Positions 23,006 through 45,180 of a DNA stretch of 64,000 nt are shown here, in pieces. The DNA is from Companilactobacillus kedongensis (GTDB taxonomy: Bacteria; Bacillota; Bacilli; Lactobacillales; Lactobacillaceae), in assembly GCF_003946625.1 (NCBI RefSeq), contig NZ_RHOR01000001.1, positions 124,001-188,000 of the forward strand. Direction: 5' to 3'. The notes beneath the pieces were generated by a model. The model saw only the letters and a list, made by a program, of their open reading frames with translations. It made no database searches and was not told the origin of the DNA. The translations under genes and the position numbers were made by a program. Positions within the stretch are counted from its first letter, which is position 1. Each line of letters opens with the position of its first letter.

Positions 23006-23926
23006 ATGCGAATTCAACAGTTGGAATATTTAGAAACAATCGTCAAAATGGGATCGATCAATGAAGCAGCCAAAAAGTTATATTTAACTCAACCTAGTTT
23101 GTCGAATGCCATCAAAGAACTGGAAAAAGAAATGGGTATTACGATCTTAAAACGTAGTAAGCTCGGTGTTTCTCTAACAAATGAGGGACGTGAATTTATG
23201 ATATATTCTCGACAAGTTTTGGATCAGGTGCAACTGCTAGAAGGCAGATATCAAAAACAGGTTGTCAGAAAACAGGCTTTTTCAGTATCAGCGCAACATT
23301 ATGCATTTGTGGTCCATGCATTTGTCCAGTTGATCAAAACAGTTGATGCTGATGAGTATCAATTTACCTTGCGAGAAACCGAAACTGAAAATATTTTAAG
23401 TGATTTGACTAGTTTTAAAAGTGAAATCGGGATTTTGTATTTAAATCATTTTAATGAAAGAGTCATGCAAAAATTATTCAAGGAAAAGGATTTAGTATTT
23501 ACACCTCTATTTAAGGCCTGGCCACATGTCTTTGTTGGGCGTCAAAATCCTTTAACAAAGAAAGATAAAGTAAGTTTAGATGATTTGGTTGATTATCCTT
23601 ATTTATCTTATGAACAGGGTGAGAGTAATTCATTTTATTTTTCAGAGGAAATATTGAGTACGCTAGATCATAAAAAGAGTATTAAAGTCAGTGATCGTGC
23701 AACTATTTTTAATCTGATGGTTGGTTTAAATGGCTATACGATCAGCTCGGGGATAATTAGTAGTGCTTTGAATGATGACAAAATCGTAGCGATCCCACTT
23801 GATGTCGATGATTCAATGACATTGGGATGGCTTAAACCTAGACAGTTGAAACTTAGTCCGATTGCGGAAACATATTTAGAGATGTTGAAGCAGCATATTA
23901 AAGGTTATGGTTTTGATATTATATAG
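23006..23926 (+). CDS. LysR-family regulator of methionine synthesis (MtaR/MetR-like)
   Basis: LysR-type regulator, 306 residues. The winged helix-turn-helix is at the N-terminus (GSINEAAKKLYLTQPSLSNA), followed by a linker helix and a two-lobed effector domain. It resembles the CpsY/MtaR branch. Its divergent position to metE and the perfect MET-box between them make it the likely regulator of metEF, with homocysteine or a related metabolite as coinducer by analogy. ATG at 23006 follows ACAGGAGGG. The gene ends just before the branched repeat element. Confidence 0.9.
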   Translation: MRIQQLEYLETIVKMGSINEAAKKLYLTQPSLSNAIKELEKEMGITILKRSKLGVSLTNEGREFMIYSRQVLDQVQLLEGRYQKQVVRKQAFSVSAQHYAFVVHAFVQLIKTVDADEYQFTLRETETENILSDLTSFKSEIGILYLNHFNERVMQKLFKEKDLVFTPLFKAWPHVFVGRQNPLTKKDKVSLDDLVDYPYLSYEQGESNSFYFSEEILSTLDHKKSIKVSDRATIFNLMVGLNGYTISSGIISSALNDDKIVAIPLDVDDSMTLGWLKPRQLKLSPIAETYLEMLKQHIKGYGFDII

Positions 23927-23931
23927 TCTCC

Positions 23932-24099
23932 GCTTGTGAGAACAAAATTTGCCTGTGGTTGGACCGTTCCAAGCCTTGACCTTGGAACTCGCTTTTGAGC
24001 TTTGCTTGCGCAAATCTCGAAAGCGTCCATTCCGTAAGATCGGCACAAATCGCCGGTCTAACGGAATTTTAACCACAGGCAAATTTTGTTCTCACAAGC
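23932..24099. repeat. 168-base cloverleaf-like inverted repeat element
   Basis: A perfect 29-bp inverted repeat (23932-23960 with 24071-24099) encloses 110 bases that fold into three further hairpins: GTTCCAAG (23966-23973) with CTTGGAAC (23981-23988); CGCTTTTGAG (23990-23999) with CTCGAAAGCG (24016-24025), capped by TTTGC (24001-24005) with GCAAA (24010-24014); and ATTCCGT (24029-24035) with ACGGAAT (24061-24067), extended by AGA/TCT and CGGC/GCCG. No reading frame of note. The form suggests a non-coding mobile or structural repeat. Start and end are defined by pairing only. Confidence 0.85.
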
Positions 24100-24146
24100 T
24101 CCGTATCTTTGTAGTGCATTAGTATTATAAATACAGAATTAAAAAT

Positions 24147-24185
24147 ACCCTTCAGATATGTGCAATATAAGCATATCTGAAGGGT
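24147..24185. terminator. 14-bp hairpin, possible minus-strand terminator
   Basis: ACCCTTCAGATATG (24147-24160) pairs perfectly with CATATCTGAAGGGT (24172-24185). On the minus strand it is followed by ATTTTTAATT; on the plus strand by a weaker TTAATTAATTTT. It may backstop yidC or end transcription from the LysR gene. Confidence 0.55.
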
Positions 24186-24212
24186 GTTAATTAATTTTAT
24201 TAAGTAATAGCA

Positions 24213-24263
24213 AGAAGAATCAGAGTAATTCTACACGACAGGTGGAATTACTCTGATCCTTCT
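24213..24263. repeat. 18-bp interrupted hairpin in intergenic gap
   Basis: AGAAG (24213-24217) and ATCAGAGTAATTC (24219-24231) pair with GAATTACTCTGAT (24245-24257) and CTTCT (24259-24263), one A-C mismatch, 13-base loop. No T run follows closely on either strand, so it is not an obvious terminator. Function unknown. Confidence 0.6.
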
Positions 24264-24283
24264 GCGGCTGTTAACAAAAATAC

Positions 24284-24319
24284 AAAAAAATAGACCCATA
24301 CCAATCCTAGGTATAGGTC
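24284..24319 (-). terminator. terminator of yidC
   Basis: On the minus strand, the complement of GGTATAGGTC (24310-24319) pairs with that of GACCCATACC (24293-24302), one mismatch, and is followed by the complement of the A-run 24284-24290, giving seven T. It lies about 100 bases beyond the yidC stop. The 24320-24420 interval between holds a 19-base palindrome (24366-24384) and nothing else recognised. Confidence 0.75.
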
Positions 24320-24420
24320 CGAGACTACATTATAGAAATCTTTGGAATGTATAATGCAATCACATTGCAGGTAGGCTACCTGCACAAATAAGAATACACT
24401 TTTTATACCAAAATAGCTAA

Positions 24421-25410
24421 CTATTTTTTATCAATATTTTGTTTACCCTTATTTAATTCACGTAATTTAGCATGTTCATCCTTAGGTGTATCAGAACTTT
24501 CAGTACCTTCAACGGCTTTAGCTGAACCATTTGATGAGCCGTTAATGATCTTTTCAAGTATTTCTTCATTAACAACAACTTCGATTGGATGTTCTTTAAG
24601 ATATTCGTCAGTTTCACGTCTAACTTTAGGAACCATGACATAGTTTGTTAATGCTTGTTGAATCAAGATAACAACACCACCGACTAAGAAATAAAGAGCC
24701 AAGGCGGCTGAAGCATACATTGAGATGAAGAATGTGAACATTGGATTCATGAACAACATCATTTGCATTTGTTTTCTTTGTTCTTGTGGAACGATTTGTA
24801 GTGACATCCAACTTTGGATAACGTAGAAAACAGTAGCAACCATTGCAATGACAAAACTTGGTTTACCAAGTGGGATCGACAAGAAGACAGCTGAACCAAT
24901 TTGTTTTGAATATTGCACAGCCTGATAAATAGCAATCAAGATCGGCATTTGAAGTAACAATGGCAAGCATCCCATTCCACCGGTGATGCTTAAATTATTC
25001 TTCTTGTAAATATCCATCATTAAAGCACTTAATTTTTGAGAAACAGCAGGATCTTTAACTTCTTTTTGTTTTTCTTGAAGTAAGGCTAATTGTGGTTGTA
25101 CAGCACGCATTTTTTCTTGTTGTGTTGTTGATTTGTATTGTTGGTTCAAAGAAAGTGGCAATAGTAGTAAACGAACAACGAAGGAAATGATAACGATTCC
25201 CCAAGCGTAGGCATTTTTACCGCCAACTATCTTAGCTGTAGCTAAAATCAAGTTTTGGAAAGGAACCCCAAGATACTTGTAGATCAGTCCGTAGGGTCCG
25301 CCAGTTGGTGCATGCATATGAGCGCCTGTTTGAGCACAACCTGAGACGACCAATGCCAGCACTACAACGACTGATAGCACTGAAACGTATTTGATAAATT
25401 TTTTATTCAA
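24421..25410 (-). CDS. yidC: membrane protein insertase YidC/OxaA, lipoprotein form
   Basis: Inserts and folds membrane proteins alone or with SecYEG. An N-terminal lipoprotein signal ends VVSGC with Cys25 as lipidation site. The OxaA core follows with about five membrane segments between residues 50 and 265, including PLSLNQQYKS, LPLLLQMPILIAIYQAV and MLFMNPMFTFFISMYAS. The tail is charged. Length 329 residues. In Firmicutes a paralogue next to rnpA is usual; this is a separately placed copy (YidC2-like), an inference as the other locus is outside the window. Confidence 0.95.
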   Translation of the reverse strand: MNKKFIKYVSVLSVVVVLALVVSGCAQTGAHMHAPTGGPYGLIYKYLGVPFQNLILATAKIVGGKNAYAWGIVIISFVVRLLLLPLSLNQQYKSTTQQEKMRAVQPQLALLQEKQKEVKDPAVSQKLSALMMDIYKKNNLSITGGMGCLPLLLQMPILIAIYQAVQYSKQIGSAVFLSIPLGKPSFVIAMVATVFYVIQSWMSLQIVPQEQRKQMQMMLFMNPMFTFFISMYASAALALYFLVGGVVILIQQALTNYVMVPKVRRETDEYLKEHPIEVVVNEEILEKIINGSSNGSAKAVEGTESSDTPKDEHAKLRELNKGKQNIDKK

Positions 25411-26598: not shown

Positions 26599-26633
26599 CG
26601 TAGATATATTAATAATTAAAACATTGAAGAAAA

Positions 26634-26817
26634 ATAGTAACTAACAAGTTTGTGACAGGAAGAATCGGAAACTGAGAAGATTTGACAGACGAATTAGTGA
26701 ATTCACTTTCGGAGTTTTAAAGTTGGTTACTATATAGCCATTTGAGTGCATGTCTTTAACATGAACTAGGGTGGTACCGCGAGTCCTCGTCCCTTATTTG
26801 GGATGAGGACTTTTTTT
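26634..26817 (+). promoter_or_regulatory. T-box leader of pheST
   Basis: Leader sensing uncharged tRNA-Phe. Stem I closes by ATAGTAACTAAC (26634-26645) with GTTGGTTACTAT (26722-26733), one wobble. The T-box core TGGTACCGCG is at 26772-26781; TGGT would pair with a tRNA ending ACCA. The terminator pairs GTCCTCGTCCC (26783-26793) with GGGATGAGGAC (26800-26810) and runs into seven T. Two TTC triplets (26702-26704 and 26708-26710) are candidate Phe specifiers; I could not choose between them. Confidence 0.94.
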
Positions 26818-40562: not shown

Positions 40563-40636
40563 GTTGCAGTGGCTCAGTTGGATAGAGCAACGGTCTTCTA
40601 AACCGTAGGTCGTGAGTTCGAATCTCACCTGCAGCA
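40563..40636 (+). tRNA. tRNA-Arg (anticodon TCT)
   Basis: 74-base cloverleaf. Acceptor arms GTTGCAG (40563-40569) and CTGCAGC (40629-40635) pair with one G-T; D arm GCTC...GAGC; anticodon loop TTCTAAA reads AGA; T arm GTGAG-TTCGAAT-CTCAC. Discriminator A at 40636; CCA is not encoded. Single-gene transcript with its own promoter and terminator. I found no duplicated 3' end that would mark an integrated element. Confidence 0.97.
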
Positions 40637-45099: not shown

Positions 45100-45180
45100 G
45101 TTGCAATCACTATTGCATCTACAACCGCTCAAAATCAGGTTTAAGCTATAGGCACCTGATTGGCGAGTCTTAGAAGGGAG
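45100..45180 (+). promoter_or_regulatory. L21 ribosomal protein leader
   Basis: The stretch with ACAACCGCTC, the stem AATCAGGT (45133-45140) with ACCTGATT (45154-45161) and the trailing GGCGAGTCTTAGAAGGGAG matches the conserved L21 leader found before rplU in Firmicutes, thought to mediate autogenous control by L21. Ends at the rplU ribosome site. Confidence 0.88.

Follow-up and report, generated by a model that had tools for sequence, protein, structure and literature searches.

A branched palindrome of Companilactobacillus kedongensis belongs to a high-copy, dispersed, non-coding repeat with a conserved four-way-junction fold

Introduction

Between two convergent genes in a 64,000-nucleotide stretch of the Companilactobacillus kedongensis genome (hereafter the window) lies a 168-base palindrome, in which a perfect 29-bp inverted repeat surrounds three hairpins. 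What kind of sequence folds into such a cloverleaf, is it one of many, and how do two arms of this length stay complementary? Template switching is one process reported to create hairpin stems and to maintain them (PMC8794818).

Results

The window palindrome folds into a cloverleaf

A base-by-base check of the window found the two outer arms complementary at 29/29 positions. RNA folding of the + strand gave -103.5 kcal/mol (z -15.3, with 0 of 200 shuffles as low) and of the - strand -98.3 (z -12.5), while DNA folding of positions 23925-24106 gave z -14.3. The layout described in a sequence-only reading of this locus, three inner hairpins within a perfect 29-bp inverted repeat, is thus confirmed with its coordinates (Table 1). 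That reading had overlooked two things: the element begins 5 nt after the stop codon of ORF 23006-23926, and a family member without a core stands at 24210-24268 on the - strand. No second intact copy lies in the 64-kb window, whose other RNA features are all ordinary: a T-box leader (26615-26797), a tRNA gene (40563-40636) and an L21 leader (45113-45180).

Table 1 Features of the palindrome and its surroundings, in window coordinates. R1 is the covariance model described in the next section; the two genes are named from their sequences.
Feature	Position	Strand	Basis and remarks
Gene, presumably of a LysR-type regulator	23006..23926	+	ORF; stop codon just ahead of the cloverleaf element
Cloverleaf element, subtype A	23932..24099	+	Sense orientation; R1 match 23936-24095, 148.4 bits
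Outer stem, 5' arm (variable and inner part)	23932..23960	+	Pairing check
Hairpin 1	23966..23988	+	8 bp, from RNA fold; loop region GCCTTGACC in the window copy, GCCWWGGTC in most family members
Hairpin 2	23990..24025	+	10+5 bp, from RNA fold; AGCTTTGC..GCAAATCT; sequence-wise the most conserved hairpin
Hairpin 3	24029..24067	+	7+8 bp, from RNA fold
Outer stem, 3' arm	24071..24099	+	29/29 complementary; T-A where most copies have a T.T mismatch
Simple 15-bp hairpin lying between cloverleaf element and partner, placed like a terminator	24147..24185		Sequence and fold
Partner element, subtype B, core lost, only outer hairpin left	24210..24268	-	Comparison with 250 compiled elements
Intrinsic terminator-like site of the yidC-type gene	24292..24320	-	Consensus match only
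Gene, presumably of a YidC-type insertase	24421..25410	-	ORF; convergent neighbour of the element

The element is one of many non-coding copies

The sequence-only reading had proposed a copy count by BLASTN, and had held that a single copy, unconserved in relatives and free of compensatory changes, would point to a chance or decaying structure. A blastn search of the C. kedongensis genome gave 49 matches, so the element is not single-copy. Once 13 of 52 copies with unclear ends had been left out, the remaining 39 full copies were aligned (A1), and RNAalifold returned 51 consensus pairs, 41 of them with compensatory changes; the case for a chance structure set out in that reading thus fails. 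A covariance model built after this alignment (R1) gave at least 150 matches in the same genome. In the 906,810 bases examined (40% of the genome) we counted 158 non-overlapping sense copies, namely rows 1-122 of a list of 198 together with 36 of the 37 rows of a second set, from which one antisense row was left out; the 76 rows of the first list below rank 122, mostly antisense matches at places already kept and a few weaker places, were also left out. These copies cover about 28 kb, or 1.2% of the genome. Cut out by folding, with 4 ambiguous rows left out, the units measure 126-239 bp, most of them 150-180, and no gene lies inside the element. A single-copy chance palindrome is ruled out by the blastn and R1 copy counts. 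Density is patchy: among the best 150 matches listed, more than 20 fall on one contig (C23, 177 kb) and 3 on another of similar length (C32, 164 kb).

The genome thus holds many similar non-coding copies (158 sense elements), as a MITE-like repeat in the broad sense does, and the earlier suggestion of a non-autonomous repeat family is borne out by this number, by the spread over many genomes reported below and by the lack of a gene inside. These data show that the element is a member of a dispersed repeat family, small, palindromic and non-coding, that occurs in high copy number and folds into a conserved four-way junction.

No Rfam family scored above its gathering threshold at the window element or at elements in 11 other loci, and a known RNA family was rejected on this ground. 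The tRNA covariance model had no match on the elements, and matched only elsewhere, at window positions 40563-40636 and at L008:903-976. Searches for plasmid or phage relatives (plasmids with four queries) gave no match, and such an origin was rejected. A literature search, judged by titles and mostly made without the genus name, found no title on these elements.

Anatomy, subtypes and the facing partner

For the comparisons that follow, the 158 copies were compiled with 34, 31 and 27 from three relatives (G017, G020 and G023, respectively) into a set of 250 elements. By eye, these have conserved tips that read about GCCG(C/T)CT(A/C)C and CTCCGRCTA and are accompanied by a small internal loop of pyrimidines; the tips sit outside a stem that is variable but complementary. 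Inside the variable stem come an inner stem with a T.T mismatch (170/250 copies) and then the three hairpins. Three subtypes, A, B and C, are set apart by the outer stem and count 75, 56 and 27 copies in C. kedongensis. Just 2 of the 250, the window copy among them, have Watson-Crick pairs at all of the first 25 stem positions. The window copy owes this to the loss of the mismatch that most copies keep, as expected of a template-corrected palindrome. Among the 178 elements with a clamped tip (the other 72 were left out), 116 have an unpaired tip loop and 33 a fully paired one, the remaining 29 being intermediate. In the fully paired ones the 5' side copies the canonical other side in 8 cases and the 3' side does so in 1, neither side being canonical in the other 24. 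At one orthologous pair, own_L172_4101p and G023_L219_6267m ("own" denoting C. kedongensis), the outer stem is common to both and the hairpin 1 stem is largely different yet complementary in each, which suggests module exchange.

On the - strand, positions 24210-24268 of the window matched the compiled set of 250 elements 50 times, and 49 of these matches were to type B; none of 20 shuffles gave a match. At the window site two elements thus face each other, an A-type copy with a perfected stem standing opposite a core-less B-type copy.

Elements lie behind stop codons and face each other

Gene context, with long ORFs taken as genes, was available for 235 of the 250 elements (the 15 without context being left out): 122 lie between convergent, 106 between co-directional and 7 between divergent genes. 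Sense-downstream placement was found for 185. When the tip is set 12 nt beyond the model, it comes 0-25 nt after the stop codon in 117 of these, overlaps the ORF end in 11 and is farther away in 57. Of the single elements (n = 95), 40/46 in convergent regions are nearer the gene of the same sense and 33/46 in co-directional regions are in sense; 3 are in divergent regions. At the sites inspected, separate terminator-like hairpins come after the element and persist in relatives where it is absent, and the idea that the element is itself the terminator was rejected.

All but 2 of the 74 pairs of neighbouring elements (72) are in facing orientation, at a median gap of 134.5 bp. In C. kedongensis, a B element stands opposite a non-B one in 37 of the 51 such pairs (24.8 expected, permutation p 0.0001), and 38/51 are unlike when all three subtypes are counted (30.6 expected, p 0.016). 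The three relatives have 11/21 B with non-B pairs, with no clear excess (G017 3/7, G020 5/7, G023 3/7). A possible reason for the bias in C. kedongensis is that long identical inverted repeats would be unstable.

Two further arrangements were observed. At L022:1480-2676, two facing B elements stand about 0.9 kb apart around three small ORFs (80, 83 and 101 aa), none of them transposase-like by eye, which may be cargo. At L008:999-1396, two B elements in direct repeat follow a tRNA gene; their cores are 96% identical and their outer stems are different and complementary.

Turnover at orthologous sites

We compared orthologous sites in 64 pairs, 36 of them with both flanks. The product of the yidC-type gene beside the window element is 94% identical in C. 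keshanensis, 91% in C. baiquanensis and 90% in C. tucceti. By eye, the latter two species lack the element at the window site; C. keshanensis has a half-deleted element whose remaining arms carry a compensated change (likewise by eye). Other sites in relatives hold empty gaps, remnants or full copies. The element is therefore present at some orthologous sites and absent from others, a pattern in which gain and loss are not separable: several copy-less sites carry remnants, so that loss is as visible as gain. No fresh insertion was caught, the relatives having diverged too far for junctions to be placed exactly or target duplications to be read. Own-G023 orthologues with a core identity of at least 0.82 have the same or a closely similar stem, and those with lower core identity do not. 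Between C. kedongensis and G017 or G020, site and orientation are often the same and subtype and stem are other.

Spread across the genus and the order

R1 has matches in 28 of 36 Companilactobacillus genomes, C. kedongensis included and some with one or two weak matches; 8/36 have no match. Counts, antisense matches included, reach at least 83 per genome. Under a stricter filter, R1 matched 17 of 198 genomes in a sample of the order, again including C. kedongensis, and C. kedongensis alone in a class-level sample of 200. A homology-test model, R2, was built solely from 28 copies of another family (f5). Run on the C. kedongensis stretches, R2 marked 80 places, nearly all of them already-known elements. 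It matched 30/198 genomes under five family labels, one of which is a single match in a single genome, and found copies in 11 genomes of a family of the same order (f2) that might include enterococci. Common to the R1 and R2 families are a junction around GTGGnACC and a hairpin 1 with the loop GCC(WW)GGTC; hairpins 2 and 3 differ between the Companilactobacillus and f5 copies. By these matches, the element has homologues in other families of the Lactobacillales. Placement is looser in f5: with duplicate locus L131 left out, 19 of 29 copies are sense-downstream, at a median distance of 83; of six elements in G198, three are in divergent regions. Five or six copies with identical scores were seen in each of two genomes of other families (G028 C1, G133 C1), and may be recent amplifications suited to a mobiliser search.

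The Y1 transposase domain (PF01797) was found in 9 of the 21 genomes tested. It is present in copy-rich G017, G043 and G001 and also in G006, G048, G024 and G051, which have no R1 matches; it is absent from copy-rich G020, G023, G002, G005, G008 and G015, and C. kedongensis has only a contig-edge fragment. Mobilisation by RAYT/IS200 enzymes was rejected, since Y1 transposases do not track copy number. The PF01797 test in these 21 genomes thus identified no mobilising enzyme.

How the outer stem stays complementary

The outer 12 pairs of the 250 copies comprise 2760 Watson-Crick pairs, 65 G-U, 77 A-C, 93 other mismatches and 10 gaps, with all 12 paired in 107 copies. A separate count over 122 C. 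kedongensis copies gave 43 G-U and 43 A-C. Hairpin 1 has 40 G-U versus 46 A-C (3/250 copies without a readable hairpin 1 left out), and hairpin 2 has 162 versus 77, concentrated in few columns (10/250 unreadable copies left out). The wobble tolerance of an RNA helix is thus absent from the outer stem and hairpin 1, and a G-U excess is found in hairpin 2. An RNA helix under selection would be expected to be rich in G-U relative to A-C, and the outer stem, having no such excess, therefore argues against RNA selection; the excess in hairpin 2 leaves room for an RNA-level constraint on the core. An early hand tally of the core hairpins (34 G-U versus 12 A-C in 39 copies) had looked RNA-like, and was set aside when the larger recount failed to reproduce it for hairpin 1.

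We then compared stems between copies. In C. kedongensis, stem pairing drops with distance to the closest paralogue (0.970, 0.947, 0.914 and 0.825); in the relatives the relation is uneven (0.958, 0.899, 0.950 and 0.869). Between closest paralogues, counting reciprocal-best ones only (43 pairs, 408 stem bp), 104 changes are double and complementary and 32 single, and in another 15 cases a double change has left one of the two copies mismatched. Between own-G023 orthologues (10 pairs, 102 bp; 4 pairs with shifted or eroded arms left out), 6 are double and 15 single. Two G020 copies with a single core difference in 120 positions carry unlike stems, both of them complementary; in other cases nearly identical copies have one stem in common (the two copies of G017_L194; own_L173 and own_L184). 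Contrary to the sequence-only reading, which had taken the perfect stem as a sign of recent duplication or continuing selection, these near-identical copies with different stems and the missing wobble excess do not support that claim as it was stated. Together, the stem patterns fit fold-back template switching better than RNA selection, and gene conversion of the cores is a rival.

That rival holds that the elements are old fixed sites, where gene conversion homogenises the cores and every locus retains a stem of its own that slowly co-evolves. We regard it as possible, if on the doubtful side. It fits one locus well, since G020_L253 and own_L189 have an unusual stem in common (86% over stem and tips) around cores that are 70% identical. 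The remnants at orthologous sites also speak for it, as does the pair own_L172_4101 / G023_L219_6267, with the same outer stem and a different hairpin 1. At low core identity, however, orthologous stems hardly exceed random ones of the same type (type A, 0.51 versus 0.46, with 50/5000 draws as high; type B, 0.60 versus 0.58, with 2086/5000). Moreover, conversion tracts ending in the stem should leave mismatched arms, so that the best Watson-Crick pairing in the C. kedongensis copies with the closest paralogues counts against conversion. The present comparisons could not separate the birth of each copy with a new stem from gene conversion of the core.

Selection on the transcript might instead maintain pairing of the outer stem, the element then being a structured RNA at the 3' end of mRNAs or a small RNA. 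This reading would account for the sense orientation behind stop codons, for compensatory changes throughout the element and for the few G-U-rich columns of hairpin 2. We consider it unlikely, given the near-equal G-U and A-C counts in the outer stem (in both counts) and in hairpin 1, the fall of stem pairing with distance from the closest paralogue in C. kedongensis, and the lack of an Rfam match.

Stems that are specific to a copy and still complementary might also have been captured from the target. EFAR, a repeat of Enterococcus faecalis, reportedly enters hairpins unrelated to itself and retains some of their stem sequence, and by the same mechanism the cloverleaf core would enter existing hairpins, whose arms become the outer stem. 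We hold this to be quite improbable: the variable stem is enclosed by the conserved tips, own-G023 orthologues whose cores are similar have the same stem, and a search for hairpins that bear both tips but no core gave one remnant, read on both strands. That search is a weak one, its motifs having recovered 11 tip pairs at full length where 122 elements lie and having missed 24210-24268.

The chance that we are dealing with a random or decaying palindrome or a plain terminator is next to nil, for although T-rich sequence is common after the 3' tip, the z -15 fold, the 158 copies, the covariation and the separate terminator-like hairpins beside copies all speak against it.

Discussion

Taken as a whole, the cloverleaf elements are probably a REP/BIME- or EFAR-like dispersed palindrome with a stem kept complementary by fold-back copying, an explanation that we favour with some reserve. 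Copies would probably be spread by an enzyme encoded elsewhere. Fold-back copying at the DNA level (template switching) would keep the outer arms complementary, and the stem would change by paired substitutions and then decay by ordinary mutation with no wobble bias; both steps are supported by the comparisons above, not proven. Judging by position alone, an element carried in an mRNA probably serves as a structural block at the 3' end. What counts against the favoured explanation is that own-G023 orthologues have mostly single changes, that some stems are identical and that the rule of unlike pairs is not evident in the relatives; the G-U excess of hairpin 2, the G020_L253 and own_L189 locus, and the lack of a caught insertion or of a transposase in the genomes tested stand on the same side. 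A more far-reaching version seems rather improbable to us: a cloverleaf DNA class across the Lactobacillales that would move through a fold-back intermediate by means of an unrecognised non-Y1 enzyme, each copy being born with a rewritten perfect stem, settling after stop codons in the transcribed orientation, and facing unlike partners because like pairs are unstable.

The elements matter in three respects. Firstly, a repeat without an Rfam entry takes up 1.2% of this genome in 158 copies, and its class is found under five family labels of the order. Secondly, the placement behind stop codons, taken by itself, suggests broad effects on mRNA ends. Thirdly, the 250 copies are a natural data set for a question raised in PMC8794818: is it selection or template switching that produces the compensatory changes of hairpins?

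How do the cloverleaf elements compare with known systems? ERIC, BOX, RUP and SPRITE are likewise short, repeated and structured. We know of no sequence that they have in common with the cloverleaf elements, and their fold and pairing rule differ. The hairpins described by Monttinen and Loytynoja (2022, PMC8794818) likewise have multi-base compensatory changes and perfect stems, which that work explains by DNA template switching; that study reconstructs histories of RNA genes, whereas here the object is a dispersed repeat in 250 compiled copies.

With the REPs and BIMEs of enterobacteria and pseudomonads the elements have in common a high copy number and a location outside genes. BIMEs consist of Y/Z pairs, which the inverted unlike-subtype pairs of cloverleaf elements resemble. 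REPs themselves measure 20-40 bp and carry GTAG or CGTC tags, those with GTAG being linked to RAYT transposases (PMC3733652); the cloverleaf elements, at about 170 bp, do not have a unit of that size, nor do the copy-rich genomes consistently hold a RAYT-type transposase. REP/BIME is thus nearest by pairing habit, and fails the tests of size and transposase.

Nearest by size and habit, compared by description only, is EFAR/Efa-1 of E. faecalis, which is also structured, intergenic and of high copy number. Efa-1 is listed at 163 bp with 65 members, mostly intergenic (PMC2267715), and EFAR is counted among bacterial MITEs (PMC3733652); we infer that the two names denote the same repeat. Efa-1 is described there as a pair of adjacent stem-loops (PMC2267715), whereas the cloverleaf has three hairpins. 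We file the cloverleaf elements among the small palindromic repeats, in no named family.
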